This document shows positions 139 to 10,958 of a stretch of DNA of 15,279 nucleotides, in pieces. Origin of the DNA: Planctomycetota bacterium. GTDB taxonomy: Bacteria; Planctomycetota; Planctomycetia; Pirellulales; Thermoguttaceae. Below the pieces are notes generated by a model. It was not told where the DNA came from. It saw only the letters and a program-made list of their open reading frames with translations, and searched no databases. The DNA lies in the NCBI GenBank assembly GCA_023397045.1, contig JAEWUR010000158.1, positions 1 to 15,279 on the forward strand, in the 5' to 3' direction. Position 1 is the stretch's first letter. Each line of letters begins with the position of its first letter. A program made the translations under genes and the position numbers.

Positions 139-311
139 ATGTCTCAACGAGCAGCGGCCCCCCCCCGCGCGACCAGAACGGCCAACCGATCCTGAAGCTG
201 GATCAGCTCTGGAGCCGCCTGCCGCAGACGGTTCGGCAGACGGTAATCGAGGCGTTGACCAGGGTGATTCTCGAAGCGTCAAAGGCCGAAAGCGAGGTGG
301 CCGATGATTGA
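139..311 (+). CDS. Small ORF upstream of recombinase, apparent frameshift at poly-C tract
   Basis: An ATG at 139 has an excellent Shine-Dalgarno site (AAGGAGG at 126..132, six-base spacer), but its frame stops after 18 codons (TGA at 193..195). The protein-like reading lies in another frame and runs from about 159 to the TGA at 309..311. It contains LKLDQLWSRLPQTVRQ and then VIEALTRVILEASKAES, an amphipathic helical pattern. The two frames would join if the nine-C run at 158..166 had one more C or two fewer, giving about 57 residues. The end of the ORF overlaps the ATG of the recombinase at 304, which suggests translational coupling. From memory, serine recombinases of this kind are often preceded by a short ORF with an LWxRL-like motif; this is recall, not a search. 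The function is unknown. The frameshift could be a real mutation, a programmed slip, or a homopolymer error in the assembly. Confidence 0.5.
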
Positions 312-2427
312 ATCACCTGCACGGGCACTGTCCATCGCTGCGCCGATCACGTTCCTCAGCAACAAGATACGCAATGCCCATTCGGAGCGGTTGGCGATCG
401 TTTATGTGCGGCAATCGAGCACCAAACAAGTCGAAGAGAACATCGAGTCGACGCAGATGCAGTATCAACTCGTCGACCGCGCCGCGGCCTTGGGATGGCC
501 ACGGCAACGGATCGAAGTGATCGACGATGACTTGGGAATCAGCGGGCGATCGATTGAAGGGCGGCTTGGCTTTCAGCGGTTGCTGGCGGAGGTATCGTTG
601 GAACACGTCGGCATGGTATTGGGGATCGAAATGAGCCGCTTCGCGAGATCTTGTCGGGACTGGCATCAACTGCTGGAGCTATGCGCGGTGTTCGGCACGT
701 TGCTTGGCGACGCCGACGGCGTCTACGATCCCCGCGATCACAACGACCGTCTGTTATTGGGACTGAAGGGAACGATGAGCGAAGCCGAGTTGCACGTATT
801 GCAGGGGCGGTTGCGGTGTGGCCAACTGAACAAGGCCCGCCGCGGTGAATACTTCTCGCACTCGCCGATCGGTTACGTCCGCAACGCGGACTCGCTGGAG
901 TTGGAGCCGGACGAGCAAGCACGCCGCGTGGTCCAATTGATCTTCGACAAGTTCTCCGAGTTGGGCAGCATGTCCGCCGTGCGTCACTACCTGCGCGAGA
1001 ACAAGATTCTCATTGGTGTCCGCGACCACCGCGGACCGCAGCGAGGCAAGCTACAGTGGCGGCCGGTCAACCAAGCGACTTTGCTGGGCATTCTTCATCA
1101 TCCCGTCTACACCGGGGCGTACGTCTATGGGCGGCGCGAAACGAATCCGAAGAAAGTCGTGCCGGGCAAGCCGGGCCGAGGCCGTCGCTGGGCTAGCAGT
1201 GCCGACTGGGACGTGCTGATCAAGGACAGGCTACCCGCCTATATCACTTGGGAGCAATGGGAGAAAAACCAGCAAAGGCTCTGGGAAAACAGCGCCAAGT
1301 ACCGCGCCGGCGGCGTCCCGCGAGGAACGTCGTTGTTGGCCGGCCGGGTCATCTGCGGACGTTGCGGCAAGCGGATGAGCGTTTGCTATTCGGGTCAGTC
1401 CAAAGCGCGCTTCACCTGCGACATGTCGCGCAACCAATGGGGCGATCGACAGTGCCAATCCTTCAACGCGCGCCCGCTGCACGAACTGCTGGAACGCGTA
1501 TTGCTCATCGCGCTTTCACCGGCATCGATCGAACTGAGTCTCGATGCCACACGGCAGATCGAAGCGGAGCGCGAACGGCTTGCGAGCCATCATCGCCAGA
1601 CGGTCGAGCGTGCTCGATACCAAAGCGAACTCGCACGCGGTCGATACGAATCGGTCGATCATAGGAACCGCTTGGTGGCGGCCGAATTGGAACGCCGTTG
1701 GGAAGCCGCCTTGCTGGAGCAGCGAGCCGCGGAAGAATCGCTTGACCGCTTTCTGCAACAAGAGCCGTTGCGACTGAGCCCCCATGAAACCGCGCGGATT
1801 CAATCTCTGGCCGCTGACATCCCCGCCCTGTGGCGGACACATTCGACTTCAGGGATCGAACGCCAAAAGATACTCCGCGCCCTGGTGGAGCGGGTGGTGG
1901 TGGAAGTCATCGGCCAAAGCGAGCGCGTTGCAGTTTCGATTCGCTGGGCCGGCGGCTTCCAAAGCGAACATGAGATTCGTCGCGCGGTGGGCAAATTCGA
2001 GCAACTCGAATCCGCAGGTGAGATTCGGTCGCGGATCATCGCCCTCAAGCAACAAGGGCACACGCACGAAGCGGTGGCCCGGCAATTAAACGCAGAACAA
2101 TTCCACTCGACGAGTGGCGGCGAGTTTACGTCCCCGATCGTCAGCCAACTCTGTCGCACGTTTCGCGAGGAGGGCTACTTCAAGGACGAGACTGCCGTGC
2201 CGTCCGGTCATTGGAGACTCTCTGCGCTTGCCCAGAAGCTGGGCATCCCTTCGGCGACTCTGAGCACATGGCGTCGTCGTGGCTGGATTCACGCGGAGCG
2301 ACGAAGCGGGCGCTGGATTCTTTGGGCCGATAACGAAGAGTTGCAGCGTCTCCACCAATTAGCCGACCATAGTCGTATCGGACTCCAGCCGACCCCTTCC
2401 CACCTCACCAAACTAAAGGTATGCTAG
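304..2427 (+). CDS. Large serine recombinase (resolvase/invertase family)
   Basis: A 707-residue site-specific DNA recombinase that cuts and rejoins DNA through a serine nucleophile. The N-terminal resolvase domain spans about residues 28-175. YVRQSS places Arg36 and Ser38 at the positions of Arg8 and Ser10 of gamma-delta resolvase, and SRFARSCRDW supplies the second arginine cluster. A Recombinase domain follows from about 187 to 330, beginning near GYVRN. A zinc ribbon comes next with Cys351, Cys354, Cys372 and Cys384. Residues about 410-510 are rich in Glu, Arg and Ala and probably form a coiled coil. The C-terminal 130 residues hold two helix-turn-helix-like stretches, one around GHTHEAVARQLN and one around LSALAQKLGIPSATLSTWRR. 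The ATG at 304 overlaps the end of the small ORF before it. All catalytic landmarks are present, so it looks intact. It probably belongs to an integrating element, but I cannot define attachment sites. Confidence 0.93.
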   Translation: MIESPARALSIAAPITFLSNKIRNAHSERLAIVYVRQSSTKQVEENIESTQMQYQLVDRAAALGWPRQRIEVIDDDLGISGRSIEGRLGFQRLLAEVSLEHVGMVLGIEMSRFARSCRDWHQLLELCAVFGTLLGDADGVYDPRDHNDRLLLGLKGTMSEAELHVLQGRLRCGQLNKARRGEYFSHSPIGYVRNADSLELEPDEQARRVVQLIFDKFSELGSMSAVRHYLRENKILIGVRDHRGPQRGKLQWRPVNQATLLGILHHPVYTGAYVYGRRETNPKKVVPGKPGRGRRWASSADWDVLIKDRLPAYITWEQWEKNQQRLWENSAKYRAGGVPRGTSLLAGRVICGRCGKRMSVCYSGQSKARFTCDMSRNQWGDRQCQSFNARPLHELLERVLLIALSPASIELSLDATRQIEAERERLASHHRQTVERARYQSELARGRYESVDHRNRLVAAELERRWEAALLEQRAAEESLDRFLQQEPLRLSPHETARIQSLAADIPALWRTHSTSGIERQKILRALVERVVVEVIGQSERVAVSIRWAGGFQSEHEIRRAVGKFEQLESAGEIRSRIIALKQQGHTHEAVARQLNAEQFHSTSGGEFTSPIVSQLCRTFREEGYFKDETAVPSGHWRLSALAQKLGIPSATLSTWRRRGWIHAERRSGRWILWADNEELQRLHQLADHSRIGLQPTPSHLTKLKVC

Positions 2428-3804: not shown

Positions 3805-4113
3805 TTAAACGCCAAGTGTTCTCGTACATACCGAGTCGCCAACGATAACAATATCCTTGGTGGATTCGACTACTACCGGCGTAGCGGTACGTATTGATTT
3901 CGCTGTGTTTGGCTGTTTCGTCTTGCTCATACCGCCGATTATTGCAGCAATCAGCAATATTAGCAAGAGCACGGGCAAAGTCACGTACCAGTACGTAAAT
4001 GGTATCGCCAAAAGGCCCAAGAGGATGACCAGGCCGCAACCCTGCCCAATTCCTACAACACATGAAGAGAGGCAGTCGCCAACGTATTTATCTGCTTCCC
4101 TGTTTATGGCCAT
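3805..4113 (-). CDS. Small membrane protein, two predicted transmembrane helices
   Basis: I chose the ATG at 4113 (102 residues) because an AGGAAGG ribosome site lies just before it; an in-frame ATG at 4167 lies deep inside the upstream gene. Residues about 25-43 and 45-62 form a nearly continuous hydrophobic stretch (GLVILLGLLAIPF, then LPVLLLILLIAAIIGG), fitting a helical hairpin or one long segment. A cysteine-containing N-terminus (Cys14, Cys18, Cys26) comes before it. A polar C-terminal tail of about 40 residues follows. No family is recognised. The start lies 26 bases inside the 3' end of the HEAT-repeat gene, so the two are probably translationally coupled. Confidence 0.6.
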   Translation of the reverse strand: MAINREADKYVGDCLSSCVVGIGQGCGLVILLGLLAIPFTYWYVTLPVLLLILLIAAIIGGMSKTKQPNTAKSIRTATPVVVESTKDIVIVGDSVCTRTLGV

Positions 4114-5191
4114 GATGAACACCTTCCTGGGGTCGAACAACCGCTGAACGTTCTTGAAGTATGTCAATTAGTGCCGACTGAACCTTCCGCCGAACCTGCC
4201 AACAGGGATCACGCAAGGCTTTGAACAGATGATGACTCGCTTCGGGGCGGACACGTTCCGCCGCCCTGATGGCATCCACGGCAATAAGTCGGATTGCGAT
4301 ATCGTTGCTGTTCAAACGTGCTCCCAGCCTCTCGAATGGCTCCTCAATGATTCGTTTAATCTCCTTCTCTTCTAATGCGGAATCTGTTTTAGATTGCAGG
4401 CTGTCCCATAGCGGACGTGAAGGCGGCGACGGGATATCATGGTTCCATCGTGCCACTTCAGTCTGCGTTAGCTCTTTTGTGAAGTGTCCCCTTCCATTGT
4501 ATTTCAACATCGCTGTGGCAATCTTGTGGACCCGTGGATCAGAGTCGCTAACGGCATGCCGCACAGCATCCGCTATGTCCGGGCGAAGATTTTCACCAGA
4601 GAACCAAGCCAATTCCCAGATCGCAGCAAATCGCACATCCGGGTCGTCGTCTTCAAGTCGGCTGACCAAACCAGCGAGAATTTCTACATTAGGAGATTTC
4701 TGCAAATCCACTTTCTTCCATTCAGCGTCGATTCTGTCAAACGCCTCAATCCATTCCTCTCTGGAAAACACCCGACTTTCGGATGCCTGGAGAATCTCCA
4801 CAATAATCTCTGGTGGATACAACAACCGATCAGAGGCTTCTCGCATCCACCAGCCCATCGCATAGCACGATGCTCTGCGAACTTCAGATGATGGATGCCT
4901 AACGAGGTCCACGAGAGCGGCAACCGCCGATGGCCCTGGGTCACACCATGCAACGCAATACACGAGATTGATTTGGTTGCAGAAGGGGACTGTCGAGATC
5001 AGCGAGGCCGCACGTTCAATCAATGCTTCGCCAAAATAACTGGGTGCCCAGAAAATCTGAACACGACGGTCAAAGAGTCCAGCGTGGGCCAAGTCGCTAA
5101 GACAATCGTCCAGGTTCCCTCCCATATAAAGGGGCTCGGAGGTCGTGTTCATTGCCGAATCCTTCCGCTTTTTGTCGGTCTTTTTTGCCAT
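4088..5191 (-). CDS. HEAT-repeat protein
   Basis: A 367-residue, probably cytoplasmic protein made largely of helical HEAT-like repeats, which usually serve as protein- or nucleic-acid-binding scaffolds. Recognisable repeats lie at about 86-118 (SSEVRRASCYAMGWW), 169-200 (DPDVRFAAIWELAWF), 201-231 (DPRVHKIATAMLKYN), 285-312 (DIAIRLIAVDAIRAA) and 318-347 (CWQVRRKVQSALIDIL). The first 15 residues are lysine-rich. Residues about 140-165 and 235-280 interrupt the array. The ATG at 5191 has an AGGAGG site in good position. It is the first of three same-strand genes and its 3' end overlaps the next start. HEAT-repeat (PBS-lyase-like) proteins are abundant in planctomycetes, so the fold alone gives no function. 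Confidence 0.75.
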   Translation of the reverse strand: MAKKTDKKRKDSAMNTTSEPLYMGGNLDDCLSDLAHAGLFDRRVQIFWAPSYFGEALIERAASLISTVPFCNQINLVYCVAWCDPGPSAVAALVDLVRHPSSEVRRASCYAMGWWMREASDRLLYPPEIIVEILQASESRVFSREEWIEAFDRIDAEWKKVDLQKSPNVEILAGLVSRLEDDDPDVRFAAIWELAWFSGENLRPDIADAVRHAVSDSDPRVHKIATAMLKYNGRGHFTKELTQTEVARWNHDIPSPPSRPLWDSLQSKTDSALEEKEIKRIIEEPFERLGARLNSNDIAIRLIAVDAIRAAERVRPEASHHLFKALRDPCWQVRRKVQSALIDILQERSAVVRPQEGVHHGHKQGSR

Positions 5192-5351: not shown

Positions 5352-5800
5352 CTATTTTTTTGATTTTAGTTGTGGAGAAATGGACCTCCGGGTGATGGTT
5401 AGTAGGCCGCAGTCGAGCAAGGCTCGACGGAGGGCCTGACGTTGTACTTGACGTTGATGATTCTCGTTCTGCGGATTCCATGATAGCGTTCGTTCCGTCA
5501 GAATCTGCGATCGATGCCGCTCGACCATCTCCAAAAACTTCTCTCGCTCCTCTTGCGTGATTGGAACGCGTACCGCCCATCGCTCACTCGGCGTCGGGCC
5601 AAGGTGGCCTTGGGGCCGAGTCAACTTGTTCGCCTGGCGGCGGGCGGCTTCGAGCGCGGCGGCGGTCCATCCGCCGGTGCGTTCGGCGAAGTGGTCGGTC
5701 CGCTTTCTCAAGCTGCCGTTGCCCGCCTCGCAACCGCCATTATACCGCGGCGTCCGGGGCGGAGAAGGCAGCCAAGCGGGAGTTTGAACGGGGCCGCAGC
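5352..5800 (-). pseudogene. C-terminal remnant of a DDE/integrase-core transposase
   Basis: The minus-strand frame reads WLPSPPRTPRYNGGCEAGNG, then LRKRTDHFAERTGGWTAAAL, EAARRQAN, GPTPSERWA, PITQEERE and finally RRALLDCGLLTITRRSISP before the stop. I associate this architecture with the C-terminal half of a family of planctomycete insertion-sequence integrases; the assignment is from memory. The RYNG..EAG segment is typical of the third catalytic region of integrase cores. No start codon fits: the frame is open leftward into the 143-bp element at 5801 with no recognisable N-terminal half beyond it. About 150 residues remain. The first two catalytic acidic residues must be missing, so it is inactive. 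Confidence 0.65.
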
Positions 5801-5943
5801 TAGTGGTCTGTCCAGATCGTCGTTACTAATGGAGGTTCGATGCGACAGAATCGTAACCCGAAGCGTGAGCGAGGGACAGCCTCGCTTACGCTTCGGGTTA
5901 CGATGTTCCGTCCATTCGTAAACTTGAATTGAACAGACCACTA
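5801..5943. mobile_element. 143-bp MITE-like element, copy 1
   Basis: The ends are an 11-base perfect inverted repeat, TAGTGGTCTGT at 5801 and ACAGACCACTA at 5933..5943. Each end begins or finishes with TA, as expected if TA is the duplicated target (IS630/Tc1-mariner style); CTAG on both sides is an alternative. It has no coding capacity and carries a long central hairpin. A second copy of the same length lies at 8849..8991, in inverted flank orientation. The left end sits exactly where the transposase remnant stops. It is probably a non-autonomous element moved by a transposase encoded elsewhere. Confidence 0.75.
5852..5902. repeat. 51-base hairpin core of MITE copy 1
   Basis: Two 23-base arms (CGTAACCCGAAGCGTGAGCG at the left, its near complement at the right) enclose the loop GACAG. 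The arms differ at one position, giving a G-T pair. The 51 bases are identical to 8890..8940 on the same strand. Such a stem could act as a transcription terminator or as an RNA structure in either direction. Confidence 0.85.
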
Positions 5944-5952
5944 GTTTTGTGG

Positions 5953-5971
5953 CATCTCGCGGAGCGAGATG
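5953..5971. repeat. Short hairpin CATCTCGC-GGA-GCGAGATG
   Basis: A perfect 8-base stem with a three-base loop lies 9 bases after MITE copy 1. I recall very similar hairpins scattered in planctomycete intergenic DNA, but only this copy is visible here. Confidence 0.5.
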
Positions 5972-5983
5972 AGTACGTTGATA

Positions 5984-6043
5984 GAACCGCGAAGGGACGC
6001 GAATGCCTGCCGATTCGCGTGCATTGGCGTTCATTCGCGGTTC
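5984..6043. repeat. Imperfect palindrome with GAACCGCGAA ends
   Basis: GAACCGCGAA at 5984..5993 is the exact complement of TTCGCGGTTC at 6034..6043. Between them are further CGCGAAT / ATTCGCG matches. It looks like a dispersed intergenic palindrome. Together with the two preceding repeats it fills most of the gap upstream of the HTH-EIIA gene. The rest of that gap (6044..6201) shows no gene. Confidence 0.5.
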
Positions 6044-6201
6044 CTTCACTGACATTGATGGTTTCGCAGGAAAGATGCCGCGAAGGGCGTTGAAGCAGGT
6101 CGGCAGGGGAGGAAGCGGACGTAGCTGGTATTGGAAAGGGAGTAAATAGAGTCTTTATTGGGTCGCAGATCAGTAATGCCGGGCTAGACAAATCGGCGTC
6201 G

Positions 6202-6927
6202 ATGGGCCAAGATAATGGCATGCCTTACAGCGAGTTCGATGTCGACAGCCTGGCTCGATACCTCCATTTGTCGCCCCAGCAAGTGGTGAAGCTGGCCGAG
6301 CGCGCTCAACTGCCCGGCCGCAAAGTCAGCGGACAGTGGCGATTCTCCAAGCCCGACATTCACCATTGGCTGGAACATCGCATCGGGCTTTCGGACGAAG
6401 TGCAGTTGATCGAAGTCGAGGCCGCGTTGGAGCGGTCGGGCGGTGGCGGCGACGATCAGGCCGAGATCTGCATCGCCGACTTGCTGCCGATGGAGGCGAT
6501 TGCCGTCCCGCTGTTCGCCCGAACGCGCAATTCGGTGATCGATTCGATGGTCGAACTGGCCGCGCAAACCGGCTGGCTTTGGGATACGAAAGAGATGGCC
6601 GCGGCCGTGAAAGCCCGTGAGGCCATGCACACCACGGCGTTGGAAAACGGGGTCGCGCTGCTGCACCCTCGCCGTCCAATGGCCAAAATACTCGGCCAAC
6701 CGTTTCTCGCATTGGGTTGCACCAGCACCGGCATCCCGTTCGGCAGCGACGTGCCGTTGACCGACGTTTTCTTCCTGATCTGCTCGACGGAAGATCGCGG
6801 CCACTTGCGGGTGTTGGCCCGCCTGAGCCGAATTCTCACCTCGCCGGGCTTCCTCAACGCCATGCATCAGGCAAACAACGCCGAGGAAGCGCGTCGGGCG
6901 ATCGTCGAGGCAGAGGAAAAACTATGA
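6202..6927 (+). CDS. DNA-binding HTH fused to PTS EIIA (PtsN-like) domain
   Basis: A 241-residue cytoplasmic regulator. Residues about 14-60 form a MerR/excisionase-type helix-turn-helix (DSLARYLHLSPQQVVKLAER, then GRKVSGQWRFSKPDIHHWLE). Residues about 88-240 match the EIIA domain of the nitrogen-related phosphotransferase system (AMHTTALENGVALLHPRRP). His155 in LLHP matches the phosphorylated histidine of PtsN (IPH in E. coli). The domain therefore probably receives phosphate from an HPr-like protein and controls the DNA-binding part or a partner; that link is inferred. The start could be ATG 6202 or ATG 6220; neither has a strong ribosome site. The stop overlaps the next gene's start as ATGA. 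Confidence 0.85.
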   Translation: MGQDNGMPYSEFDVDSLARYLHLSPQQVVKLAERAQLPGRKVSGQWRFSKPDIHHWLEHRIGLSDEVQLIEVEAALERSGGGGDDQAEICIADLLPMEAIAVPLFARTRNSVIDSMVELAAQTGWLWDTKEMAAAVKAREAMHTTALENGVALLHPRRPMAKILGQPFLALGCTSTGIPFGSDVPLTDVFFLICSTEDRGHLRVLARLSRILTSPGFLNAMHQANNAEEARRAIVEAEEKL

Positions 6928-7775
6928 CGGCCCCTGTCGCGCTGTCGATTCTGTTTGTCGGCGATTCCGATCGGACGGAGTTTCGCGAGGCTCGCGCCGA
7001 TCTGGATCAGTGGGGGACGGTGTCGGAGTTTGCGAAAGCGGAATCGGCCGCCGCGGCTTTGCGCGAGAATATCGTGACGCCCGACCTGATCGTCGTTGGG
7101 CAGACCTTTCCCGGCCAGTATTCGCACGCCGACATCGATCAATTGCGGCGTCTCGCGCCGCTGGCCCGAGTGATCGGCCTGATGGGAAGCTGGTGCGAAG
7201 GCGAAATGCGCACGGGCTCGCCCTGGCCGGCGGTCGTGCGGAACTACTGGCATCAATGGCCGGCCCGATCGCATCGCCAGCTTGGGCGGTTGGCTCGCGG
7301 CGAGAATTGCGCGTGGACGCTGCCGCCTACGGCCACCGAAGAGGAACGGCTGTTGTTGGATGCGGCCGACGAGACGGCCTCGCCGGACCATTCGCCGCCT
7401 CGCACGCCGGCCGGACGCGGTTTGATCGTGATTTTCAGCCGGTCTCGCGTCATGGCACAATGGATTTCAGCGGCCTTGCGCAGCCGGGGATACGCCACGG
7501 CGCGGCACGATTCGCCGGCCGTGACGCAGGTCGAGGGCGCGGTGGCCGCCGTTTTCGACGGCACCGATCTCGGCCCTCAGGAGCAGGACGAGTTGCGCCG
7601 GTTCGCGACGTTTGTACATCCCGCGCCGATCGTGGCACTGTCGGCGTTCCCGCGCACGACGGACCGTGAACGCGCATTGTCGGCCGGCGCTGCGGCGATC
7701 GTCTCGAAACCGATCGTCGTCGATGACCTGTTCGACGAAATCGAACGGGCCGTAACATCGAACAACGGCCGATAA
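6924..7775 (+). CDS. Protein with two degenerate receiver-like domains
   Basis: 283 residues, starting at the ATG that overlaps the previous stop (ATGA), so translation is probably coupled. Residues about 7-90 resemble a CheY-like receiver: LFVGDSDR supplies acidic Asp14 and Asp16, but the phosphorylation position in DLIVVGQTFPG is Gly59. Residues about 165-278 resemble a second receiver: VAAVFDG puts Asp212 at the acceptor position, Ser240 and SKP (Lys262) are present, but the N-terminal acidic pair is missing (VIFSRSR). No DNA-binding or enzymatic domain follows. It may be a phosphorylation-independent adaptor for the coupled EIIA regulator. The assignment rests on pattern and could be refined by structure prediction. 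Confidence 0.7.
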   Translation: MTAPVALSILFVGDSDRTEFREARADLDQWGTVSEFAKAESAAAALRENIVTPDLIVVGQTFPGQYSHADIDQLRRLAPLARVIGLMGSWCEGEMRTGSPWPAVVRNYWHQWPARSHRQLGRLARGENCAWTLPPTATEEERLLLDAADETASPDHSPPRTPAGRGLIVIFSRSRVMAQWISAALRSRGYATARHDSPAVTQVEGAVAAVFDGTDLGPQEQDELRRFATFVHPAPIVALSAFPRTTDRERALSAGAAAIVSKPIVVDDLFDEIERAVTSNNGR

Positions 7776-7785
7776 CCTCGCCCGC

Positions 7786-8799
7786 TCAACGGCCCTCTTC
7801 GAGCTTGCCGAAAACCATTCGACCGGCGCTGGTTTGCAGAACGCTGGTCACGGCCACCGAGACCGTCTGGTTGATTCGTTCGCGTCCTGACTCGATGACG
7901 ACCATCGTACCGTCTTCGAGATATCCGATGCCCTGGCCCGGTTCTTCGCCGGCCTTAATCACGCGAACGTCGATCCGTTCGCCCGGCAAGAAGACGGGCT
8001 TCAGCGCATTGGCCAGGTCGTTCAGATTGATGACCGTGACGCCTTGCAGCCGAGCGACCTTGTTCAGGTTGTAGTCGTTGGTGATTAGCTTGCCTTGCAG
8101 GTGCTTGGTCAGCGCTACGAGCTTCAAGTCGACCGTCAGGCCCGCAAACTCGGGCAGATCGCGGTCGTAGAGGACCAGTTCGATGTCGGTATTGCTGCGC
8201 AGCCGATTGAGGATATCGAGTCCCCGTCGACCTCGGCTGCGTCGCAGGCGGTCGGAGCTGTCAGCAATGCTCTGCAACTCGGCGATGACGAACTTCGGCA
8301 TCACGATCTGGCCGTCGAACACATGGGTTTCGACCACGTCGGCAATCCGGCCGTCGATCACGACGCTCGTGTCGAGGATGACGGGTCTCAGCCCTTTGAT
8401 CTCTTTGACGAACTCGACATAAGGAATAATGAACCGGAAATCATCCTTCGTCTGGATCAGCATACTGATGCAGACGTAGCATAGGATCAGGCCCAGCGTC
8501 AACTGGACCGGATTGCGGATCCGGTCGAGCGGAAGCGTCATCAAGGCCAGGCCGAAGATGTAGGTCAGCAGAAGGCCGACGAGCATGCCGAAGTAGACGG
8601 CCGAGATCGTTTCGAGCTGTTTACGTCGAAAACTGATATCGACCGTGATGACGGCCAAGGATAGGCCGACCAATCCGCCGAAAATGACGTAGACCACCCA
8701 GGACGGCGCGTCGTCGGGCACATAACCGGCCTTGATCACCGAGATGCCCAGGCCGGCCGAAACCAGGACAAACAGACATCGTAAAATTACCAGTGCCAT
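7786..8799 (-). CDS. Membrane-anchored PIN-TRAM domain protein (YacL-like)
   Basis: A 337-residue protein of the same build as Bacillus YacL. Four predicted membrane helices lie at about 2-24, 33-53, 66-86 and 97-116. A PIN nuclease domain follows at about 138-262, with acidic residues Asp143 and Asp149 (ILDTSVVIDGRI), Glu174 (VIAELQ), Asp224 and Asp242 (ITNDYNLNK). A TRAM RNA-binding domain occupies about 268-333 (GERIDVRVIKAGEEPGQGIG). PIN domains are metal-dependent RNases and the acidic set appears complete. The substrate is unknown. The gene converges on the receiver-domain gene with 10 bases between stops. Its upstream region contains MITE copy 2. Confidence 0.92.
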   Translation of the reverse strand: MALVILRCLFVLVSAGLGISVIKAGYVPDDAPSWVVYVIFGGLVGLSLAVITVDISFRRKQLETISAVYFGMLVGLLLTYIFGLALMTLPLDRIRNPVQLTLGLILCYVCISMLIQTKDDFRFIIPYVEFVKEIKGLRPVILDTSVVIDGRIADVVETHVFDGQIVMPKFVIAELQSIADSSDRLRRSRGRRGLDILNRLRSNTDIELVLYDRDLPEFAGLTVDLKLVALTKHLQGKLITNDYNLNKVARLQGVTVINLNDLANALKPVFLPGERIDVRVIKAGEEPGQGIGYLEDGTMVVIESGRERINQTVSVAVTSVLQTSAGRMVFGKLEEGR

Positions 8800-8848
8800 A
8801 AAGAAAGATTACCTTTGCGATAATGAATAATGAAATACGGGAGCATTC

Positions 8849-8991
8849 TACGGCTCTGTCCAATTCGAATTTATGAATGGACGGAACATCGTAACCCGAA
8901 GCGTGAGCGAGGGACAGCCTCGCTTACGCTTCGGGTTACGATTCTATCGCACCGAACCTCCAATAGTAACGACGGTCTAGACAGATCACTA
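8849..8991. mobile_element. 143-bp MITE-like element, copy 2
   Basis: Exactly the same length as copy 1. Its flanks match copy 1 read on the opposite strand (AATGGACGGAACATCG, then CGAACCTCCA and AGTAACGACG). The ends have drifted: TACGGCTCTGT on the left and ACAGATCACTA on the right, still starting and ending with TA. It lies 50 bases upstream of the PIN-TRAM start and 140 bases upstream of the sugar-mutase start, inside their shared divergent promoter region. It may therefore affect either transcript. Confidence 0.75.
8890..8940. repeat. 51-base hairpin core of MITE copy 2
   Basis: Base-for-base identical to 5852..5902 on the same strand, although the surrounding element is inverted. It has 23-base arms around the loop GACAG. 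Confidence 0.85.
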
Positions 8992-9131
8992 TGGCGGGCC
9001 GATCAATCCAGGCACCCCCCGCCAGGGTTGGTTTGCGTAGGTATGGACCATTCGCAGTTTAATTATGCAACGCGAAAGAAAGATCGGTCGCCCCCTTTCC
9101 TCTTTTCTCGCATTTCGGCAAAATATTGGGC

Positions 9132-10958
9132 ATGAATTTACCTCAGACTGCAATGAAACAACTGGAAACGGCCGCCGTGGCCCAAAAATTGTCACCCGCG
9201 GCTGTTGAAAATATCCGAACCTGGCTGGAACAGCCCTATTTGGAGGAGTACGCTCAGCAGATCGCCGAGCTTGTCGCCGCCGAAAAATGGGCCGAACTGG
9301 AAGACGCCTTCTGGACGACGATTCCGTTCGGCACCGGGGGACGGCGCGGCCGAATGTATCCGGTCGGCTGCAACGCGATTAACGACCGAACGATCGGCGA
9401 GAGCGCCCAGGGGTTGGCCGACTACGTCAAACAACAGGCGGCCGCCGACCCCCGGCAAGATCCCCATCGCCCGCTCTCCTGCGCGATCGCCTACGACACG
9501 CGGCATCGCTCGCGGCAGTTCGCCGAATTGTGCGCCGAGATTATGGTGGCCGCGGGCTTCAAAATCTACTTCCTCGATGGATATCGCAGCACGCCGGAAC
9601 TGTCGTTCACGGTCCGCCACAAGGATTGCGATTGCGGGATCATCATCACGGCCAGCCACAACCCGCCGAGCGATAACGCGGTGAAAGTCTATGGGCCGAG
9701 CGGCGGTCAATTCGTGCCGCCCCACGATTCGGCTTCCATCGAGGCGATGCAGAGCGTTACCTGGATCAAACGCACGCCGTTCGCCGAAGCCCTGGCGGCC
9801 GGTCGCGTCGTCTACTGTCAGGAAGAAGTCGATGCGGCGTTCATCAAGGCCGTATTGCGGCAGAACGTTCCCGGTCCGCGGAACCTCAAAATATTGTATT
9901 CTCCATTGCACGGCGTCGGGGCAACGGCCGTGATTCCCGTCCTGCACGAGGCCGGTTTCCGCGACGTCGAAGTCTTCGGACCGCACGCCGAGCCGAACGG
10001 CGATTTTCCGAACGTGCCCAAACACGTCGCCAACCCGGAAAACTCGGCCGTGTTCGATTCGATGATCGAGCATGCGAACCGTTCGGGGGCCGAACTGATT
10101 CTCGCCACCGATCCCGACTGCGACCGACTGGGCTGCGCCATCCGGAAAACGCTTGCCAAAGACGCTCCCTGGACCACGTTGACAGGCAATCAACTCGGGT
10201 CGCTCCTCGTCGATTTCCTGCTGGGATCGCGCAAGGCGGCCCGAACGCTCACGTCGAAAAACTACGTCGTCAAGACGCTGGTCACCACCGAATTGATCCG
10301 TTGCATCGCCAACGAGTACGGCATCGAGACGGCGGGCAATCTCCACGTCGGCTTCAAATGGATCGGCGCCGAGATGGACGCCCGAGGTCCCGCCGACTTC
10401 GTCCTCGGCGCCGAAGAATCGTACGGATTCCTGGTCGGCGATCACGTTCGCGACAAGGACGCGGCGGTGGCCTCGATGCTGACGGCCGAGATGGCCGCCA
10501 AGCTCAAGACGGAAGGTAAATCGCTCGACCAGCGCCTCGGCGAGTTGATGCTTCGCCACGGATGTTTCACCGAATCGCAGATCAACATCCAGATGCCCGG
10601 CGAAAAGGGCATGGAAGACATGCGCGCGATGTTGGCGAAACTGCGCACGGCACCGCCAACGGTGTTGGGCGGGATGAAGGTCTCGACGATCCGAGACTAC
10701 GCGAACAACACGCTCATAACGCCCTCGGGCGACGTTTCGCCATTGAACGCCCCGCTGGGCGACATGGTGATCCTCGATTTCGCCGAGAAAGGCAACTATA
10801 TCGCCATCCGACCGTCGGGGACGGAGCCGAAGGTGAAGATCTACCTGTTCTCCTACGACCCGCCCGAGACGATCGTCGATCTCGACGCAACCCGAGCCGC
10901 GCAGATCGAACGCCAGAAATCGATCGGCGTCGATTTCCGGGCGTATTCCGGCGCGTAG
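9132..10958 (+). CDS. Phosphoglucomutase/phosphomannomutase (alpha-D-phosphohexomutase)
   Basis: 608 residues from ATG 9132; a TTG two codons earlier is a less likely start. It interconverts the 1- and 6-phosphates of glucose or mannose in the cytoplasm and feeds sugar-nucleotide, glycogen and cell-envelope synthesis. All family landmarks are present. TASHNPP carries the phosphoserine (Ser175). ATDPDCDR carries the magnesium ligands Asp327, Asp329 and Asp331. GAEESYGFLVGD is the sugar-binding loop. RPSGTEPKVKIY near the C-terminus is the phosphate-binding loop. The length and build fit the long PGM2/PgcA-like group. The exact sugar preference cannot be read from sequence. No clear ribosome site precedes it. 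Confidence 0.93.
   Translation: MNLPQTAMKQLETAAVAQKLSPAAVENIRTWLEQPYLEEYAQQIAELVAAEKWAELEDAFWTTIPFGTGGRRGRMYPVGCNAINDRTIGESAQGLADYVKQQAAADPRQDPHRPLSCAIAYDTRHRSRQFAELCAEIMVAAGFKIYFLDGYRSTPELSFTVRHKDCDCGIIITASHNPPSDNAVKVYGPSGGQFVPPHDSASIEAMQSVTWIKRTPFAEALAAGRVVYCQEEVDAAFIKAVLRQNVPGPRNLKILYSPLHGVGATAVIPVLHEAGFRDVEVFGPHAEPNGDFPNVPKHVANPENSAVFDSMIEHANRSGAELILATDPDCDRLGCAIRKTLAKDAPWTTLTGNQLGSLLVDFLLGSRKAARTLTSKNYVVKTLVTTELIRCIANEYGIETAGNLHVGFKWIGAEMDARGPADFVLGAEESYGFLVGDHVRDKDAAVASMLTAEMAAKLKTEGKSLDQRLGELMLRHGCFTESQINIQMPGEKGMEDMRAMLAKLRTAPPTVLGGMKVSTIRDYANNTLITPSGDVSPLNAPLGDMVILDFAEKGNYIAIRPSGTEPKVKIYLFSYDPPETIVDLDATRAAQIERQKSIGVDFRAYSGA

Follow-up and report, generated by a model that had tools for sequence, protein, structure and literature searches.

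The 15,279-nt contig JAEWUR010000158.1 of a Planctomycetota bacterium (assembly GCA_023397045.1; order Pirellulales, family Thermoguttaceae), the whole of which is referred to here as the window, carries two copies of a 143-bp element in opposite orientations, and each copy has at its centre a hairpin that reads the same on the same strand. How can two copies of an element be inverted with respect to one another everywhere except in the middle? We find that, between the two copies, the core has been turned with respect to its flanks and that the same inverted state occurs in three hairpin families of related genomes. The hairpin of one copy was probably inverted in place after the copies had separated, most likely via template switching during replication. 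The argument concerns the following features of the window.

5801 to 5943, plus strand: copy 1 of the element, TA-bounded and apparently like a miniature inverted-repeat transposable element (MITE); forms an inverted pair with copy 2; TA at 5801-5802 and 5942-5943
8849 to 8991, minus strand: copy 2, the element inverted; forms an inverted pair with copy 1; TA at 8849-8850 and 8990-8991
5850 to 5904, plus strand: hairpin core of copy 1, with 25-bp arms and the loop GACAG at 5875-5879, from repeat alignment and DNA fold
8888 to 8942, plus strand: hairpin core of copy 2, of the same-strand sequence despite the inverted element; a 100% direct repeat of 5850-5904
5867 to 5887, plus strand: smallest stretch of copy 1 that is inverted relative to copy 2, reaching across the mismatched stem pair, from the list of differences

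A sequence-only reading of this locus had described two elements of 143 bp each, running from TA to TA, whose flanks align only when one copy is reverse-complemented. Both statements are correct, and with copy 2 reverse-complemented the copies are identical at 124 of 144 positions. The central block was also rightly said to be identical on the same strand, but it is 55 bp long (5850-5904 and 8888-8942) rather than 51. Folded as DNA, the plus strand of the core reaches -30.9 kcal/mol, a stability matched by 0 of 200 shuffles, and forms 25 pairs that enclose the GACAG loop and include the single G-T pair already noticed in that reading; in the fold of the minus strand an A-C mismatch takes the place of this G-T pair. 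The two copies differ at 20 positions, 13 of them among the 89 flank positions and 7 within the 55-bp core. These seven are the five loop bases together with 5867 and 5887, the two members of the sole stem pair that is not Watson-Crick, and all of them vanish when one core is turned, just as the proposed inversion of the core relative to its flanks predicts. Independent point changes were rejected as an explanation, since the chance of seven specified substitutions arising at the rate seen in the flanks is about 6e-10. Copies 1 and 2 are therefore separated by an inversion that spans no less than 21 bp (5867-5887) and no more than 55 bp. Differences clustered within a hairpin can thus stem from a single event rather than several substitutions.

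The arms of this hairpin occur well beyond the window. The exact half-site TAACCCGAAGCGTNAGCGAGG is present in 36 of 296 genomes of the order Pirellulales, with up to 83 occurrences in one genome, and a control with the reversed half-site pattern gave 0 matches in the same 296 genomes. We scored orientation in the five genomes richest in half-sites (G010, G159, G193, G255 and G104), setting aside 34 regions of G012, G018, G007 and G003, which had been inspected, as well as locus L237, which repeats L215. Flank and loop orientation were scored separately, with signs taken from pairwise alignment scores and with thresholds of at least 4 for flank support and at least 2 for loop support. Hairpins were required to have exact arms and loops of 3-33 nt, which covers part of the half-sites (8 palindromes for 72 half-sites in G255, for instance, and 13 for 83 in G193); a paired hairpin was found in 36 of the 40 regions of G010. 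The copies later added to the G010 13-nt and G159 14-nt families, named by loop length, are a part of the further matches.

This count of core orientations relative to the flanks, of the kind that the sequence-only reading had proposed and made here in relatives, revealed both orientations in three families. Among the 13-nt loops of G010 the two orientations stand at 5:4 of 12 copies under the thresholds, and at 6:6, with 4 of 16 unassigned, when the extra copies are included and aligned to the reference copy L121; with both flanks matched, L114, L121, L124 and L260 are opposed by L116 and L257. The 16-nt loops of G010 are scored 4:1 out of 18 copies, L130 being the single turned copy, and the 14-nt loops of G159 are scored 8:1 of 11, or 13:2 of 15 with the extra copies and the reference L225. 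Four families are fixed in one orientation: the 17-nt loops of G159 (18:0 of 18), the 22-nt loops of G193 (13:0 of 13), the 14-nt loops of G255 (8:0 of 8) and the 33-nt loops of G010 (6:0 of 6). The 22-nt loops of G104 (3:0 of 23) are uninformative because their flanks are not conserved. Without thresholds the fixed families are unchanged and the others become 7:5 (G010 13-nt), 11:7 (G010 16-nt), 9:2 (G159 14-nt) and 13:10 (G104 22-nt), many of the G010 16-nt and G104 assignments being weak.

For ten copies from the relatives, loop shuffling gave an equally strong preference for the turned orientation in 0 to 0.98% of trials, scored against consensus loops that we chose ourselves; these ten include L118, which has too little flank support to enter the counts. 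For the 5-base window loop alone the corresponding value is 3.3%. In the window pair and in the relatives' families alike, the loop is reverse-complemented between identical arms while the flanks are unchanged. We conclude that at least one inversion event has occurred in each of four families, namely the window pair, the G010 13-nt loops, the G010 16-nt loops and the G159 14-nt loops. Flips were scored in 6 of 31 copies in families with loops of 16 nt or less and in 0 of 37 copies with loops of 17 nt or more (P = 0.007), a difference that we regard as a trend only, because the copies are related and the families few.

What could turn a hairpin without disturbing its surroundings? A polymerase copying one arm would switch to the complementary arm, copy the loop backwards from the other strand, and then return to its original template within the 17 bp of identical outer stem. 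The outcome would be a turned loop and a turned mismatched stem pair, with the arms and flanks unchanged. Template switching was the first idea of the sequence-only reading and is still the best mechanism, with precedents in yeast, where spacers between inverted repeats, including a 5-bp spacer, are reported to have been inverted by template switching and also to have reverted (PMC8604942). The same study reports a bias towards short spacers, and the confinement of flips to scored families with loops of 16 nt or less is as expected from that bias. Hairpin inversions are likewise described from plastids (PMC6005162, citing Kelchner and Wendel 1996). The inverted state itself is observed in the window and in the three families of relatives. 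We infer the template-switch step, its spontaneity, neutrality and reversibility, and the movement of the copies by transposition.

Several points weigh against this explanation. The orientation thresholds were chosen after the scores had been seen. The 14-nt loops of G255 show 0 flips in 8 copies, so loop length is not the whole story, and a tree built from the flanks of the G010 13-nt copies lacks supported branches from which the number of events could be read. No orthologous pair with opposite loops was seen in comparisons that used one genome per genus. Finally, hotspots of microinversion in birds are reported not to be tied to stem-loops (PMC3123225).

The main rival to inversion in place is ectopic gene conversion, in which the palindromic arms would pair either way and another copy would overwrite the core backwards, producing the flip and the identity of the cores in one event. 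All 55 bp of the cores agree, against 13 differences in 89 flank positions, an outcome with a probability of 1.7e-4 were all core positions free to vary, and related genomes hold many copies that could serve as donors. The sequence-only reading had likewise taken the identity of the cores as a hint of gene conversion. The identity is real, but as a hint it is weakened: because the arms are common across the order, only 7 core positions are informative, and at flank divergence their identity has a probability of 0.33. Moreover, the turned G159 loops L222 and L233 differ from their family consensus at 36% and 14% of positions, which lies within the range of the other copies (0-36%, mean 19%) and argues against their having been copied recently from a shared donor. 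On balance we consider conversion unlikely, though it has the strongest claim among the alternatives.

Across copies, something does keep the arms constant. Of the 15 copies of the G159 14-nt family, 11 were found via the exact arm pattern; in the family as a whole the arms differ from the consensus at 0.7% and 3.5% of positions, the flanks at 16% and 27% and the loop at 19%; in the other four copies the values are 1.3% and 9.2% for the arms and 11% and 30% for the flanks. One stem position, denoted N, varies freely. The two arms agree there in 69% of 111 copies, where pooled frequencies would predict 41%. Taken genome by genome, a clear excess is confined to G010 (23 against 13.8 expected of 36 copies), with none in G159 (22 against 22.7) or G104 (15 against 16.1), so homogenisation of the arms at N is not general.

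Three further explanations were weighed. If the hairpin had entered the same site of the frame repeatedly and in both orientations, nothing need have been inverted in place. Such a history would suit the finding, detailed below, that hairpin and frame are separable, with one frame holding two hairpins (in the window and in G092) and one hairpin occurring in several frames. We nevertheless judge it very unlikely: flank and core meet at exactly the same points in the two window copies, as they do between L114, L121, L124 and L260 and the opposite L116 and L257 of the G010 13-nt family, and the loop and mismatched pair have the same sequence. Less probable again is inversion by a recombinase or transposase with the palindrome as its recognition site, perhaps serving as a switch, even though the window encodes a large serine recombinase (304-2427, plus strand) and RAYT-type genes occur in all five relatives searched. 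A dedicated enzyme is disfavoured because four families with the same arms, of 18, 13, 8 and 6 copies, are fixed. As for a switch, the copies lie between divergent gene starts, yet no promoter- or terminator-like site is found at either core; positions 5600-9200 hold two terminator-like sites, neither of them at a core and fewer than in shuffles. No enzyme is needed for the inversion, and the suggestion of a recombinase acting on the palindrome, like that of a selected switch, found no support. An assembler that traversed the palindrome the wrong way would also yield a turned core, and most of the relatives are metagenome assemblies. This we regard as equally improbable, since the outer arms in the window share only 17 uninterrupted bases, which should be shorter than the usual k-mers, and ordinary reads would span 55 bp; in addition, the contig names of G010 (k141) suggest a k larger than its core with the 13-nt loop. 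Inversion in place by template switching remains our preferred explanation. The recombinase gene at 304-2427 encodes Resolvase, Recombinase and zinc-ribbon domains and is a mobile-element gene; nothing in the analysis ties it to the hairpins.

We next consider the element that surrounds the hairpin, for which two further features are needed.

5801 to 5849, plus strand: left flank of copy 1, with the terminal repeat from 5801; its end was compared with the right end, copy 2 and the G092 element
5905 to 5943, minus strand: right flank of copy 1 including the terminal repeat; its end equals that of the G092 element at 26 of 31 bases

Terminal repeats had been noted in the copies, and as inverted repeats they rise above shuffles in copy 1 only: its left and right ends match with a score of 34 (shuffle maximum 24), whereas those of copy 2 match with a score of 14, within shuffles (mean 12.2). 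Each end of copy 2 matches the corresponding end of copy 1 (scores 70 and 62). The GC content is 50.3% for the copies and 45.5% for the copies without the core, against 58.6% for the window; the element is thus richer in A+T than its host, as is the case for TA-type MITEs. TA flanks both copies on both sides, and no empty site was found among 80 loci, synteny in the relatives being too low. The pair is best explained as two copies of a non-autonomous, TA-bounded, probably MITE-like element with a REP-like hairpin (REP, repetitive extragenic palindromic sequence) at its centre. Further searches were negative: the window has no Rfam match at the gathering threshold, a distant-mode search of plasmid sequences, which did not extend to the phage collection, gave no match, and the exact core and flank patterns had 0 matches each in viral contigs.

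Copy 1 lies between the gene starts of 4088-5191 (minus strand, HEAT repeats) and 6202-6927 (plus strand, a phosphotransferase system EIIA protein with a helix-turn-helix), and copy 2 between those of 7786-8799 (minus strand) and 9126-10958 (plus strand, phosphoglucomutase). The 7786-8799 gene, which stands between the copies, encodes a PIN-TRAM protein whose best relatives reach at most 70% identity and are mostly from uncultured Pirellulales and other Planctomycetota. A second inverted repeat, with 28-nt arms that are 82% complementary and 14 nt apart, is found at 5979-6048, directly beside copy 1.

Judged from sequence comparison, the hairpin and the flanks are separable modules, the core arms being dispersed across the order and the flanks forming a separate, apparently MITE-like frame. 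Searched in full, the element had matches in 8 of 19 relatives; among the matches listed all overlap the core (query 50-104) and none extends beyond query 38-113. The frames around the half-site differ by genome, with CTAGCAGGCTGCTGAAAA ends in G255 and CAGCCCGTTGAAA ends in G010, while G159 and G193 have other frames again. In turn, G092 carries the ends of the window element around a different hairpin (agreement at 26 of 31 bases, with a score of 42 against a shuffle maximum of 24). The G092 element with these window-like ends occurs at three places in that genome, and its internal part is dispersed over 30 of 101 genomes of the family of G092, most of the matches listed falling within query 22-98. 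The end pattern TAGTGGTCTGTYCAA had 4 matches in 2 of 396 genomes and is uninformative because the reversed control gave more (6); this count alone is no evidence, and the G092 element counts through the match of both ends and its recurrence at three places. The flanks of copies 1 and 2 joined without the core gave weak 24-25-base matches in 2 of 296 genomes, which span the artificial junction and are taken as chance. Such modularity, with the hairpin found in several frames and one frame accommodating two hairpins, is relevant to the way in which REPs and MITEs combine.

Two observations concern hairpins elsewhere. At L278:57-180 in G092, a second hairpin family of the CACTGCTGG...CCAGCAGTG type lies inside the same kind of ends. 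G104 has 23 hairpins (L201-L215, odd numbers, and L238-L252) with shared arms, 22-23-nt loops and barely conserved flanks, as if the hairpin had moved alone or the frames had decayed.

A full-length transposase with the same terminal repeats, for which the sequence-only reading had suggested a search, was not found in the 13 DDE_3 loci of four genomes (G092, G249, G010 and G255) or in the end-pattern scan of 396 genomes. An inverted pair at L313 was rejected as a set of transposase ends; it appears only at the loosest setting (4 mismatches in 15), which by our estimate is easily reached by chance. Most bacterial MITEs are reported to have no insertion sequence that shares their ends (PMC2229807).

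The hairpin looks REP-like, being a short palindrome that genomes can carry in high numbers (as many as 83 exact half-sites). REPs are reported in Planctomycetes, and some REPs inside longer palindromes (PMC3733652); an unpaired GTAG or CGTC at one end of the stem is the mark of the REP families described there. Neither motif adjoins the 55-bp core in the window copies; a CGTC stands five bases beyond the stem of copy 1. Genes for Y1_Tnp proteins, the RAYT (REP-associated tyrosine transposase) type, were present in all five genomes searched (40 matches, 30 loci read), and in 5 of the 30 loci (L330, L338, L339, L342 and L350) hairpins that resemble each other in sequence flank the gene on either side. 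The core itself borders none of the 30; L326 and L334 just have a copy within 1.5 kb. The bounding arms of L350, a locus of G104, agree with the core at 12 of 15 bases, the free position among them, and this match, the best of seven picked arms, was reached in 0.3% of shuffles (P 0.003). A link to RAYTs is no more than suggestive. The bounded RAYT-type genes of G159, G193 and G104 have different hairpins, and REP-RAYT pairs seem diverse in the order Pirellulales.

What does the inverted hairpin add to what is known? No report of hairpin inversion inside bacterial MITEs was found in a literature search that covered titles and the starts of abstracts, with most subscription journals outside it, and six core-arm strings did not occur in the searched literature. 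The inversion is real and is best explained as a known kind of event; its interest lies in its recurrence in a bacterial repeat with many copies. The known cases of hairpin inversion are single plastid and yeast loci, and tens of copies in one bacterial genome amount to many parallel trials, with which the rate of inversion, its loop-length limits and its reversibility become measurable. We tentatively suggest, as a possibility somewhat short of an even chance, that the Pirellulales carry an order-wide REP-like hairpin module that centres several unrelated MITE frames, and that its orientation has drifted towards 1:1 in some short-loop families, making it a natural counter of hairpin inversion in one genome. 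If this is true, the inversion rate could be read against loop length and arm identity within a single bacterial genome.

Among TA-type MITEs, RUP, Correia and ERIC as described in PMC2229807 resemble the window element in being shorter than 200 bp, with TA at both ends, terminal inverted repeats (here in copy 1) and stem-loop potential. The window element differs from them in that no transposase partner was found, the central hairpin occurs in other frames as well, and the ends of copy 2 have drifted. With the REP/RAYT system, as portrayed in PMC3733652, it shares a short palindrome with tens of copies per genome and, in G104, a RAYT gene bounded by hairpins with similar arms; unlike those REPs, the window hairpin has no GTAG or CGTC at its stem and sits in a TA-bounded frame. 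The plastid inversions presented in PMC6005162 likewise consist of the recurrent reverse-complementation of a noncoding hairpin loop, but the accounts given there place them in intergenic regions and introns, with no mobile element. Closest in form is the inversion of spacers between inverted repeats in yeast as reported in PMC8604942, where a short spacer is turned between long identical arms, with or without arm differences, recurrently and with short spacers favoured. The yeast cases reported there are single loci in coding genes of strains, whereas here many copies of a dispersed bacterial hairpin are involved and no strain pair was seen.

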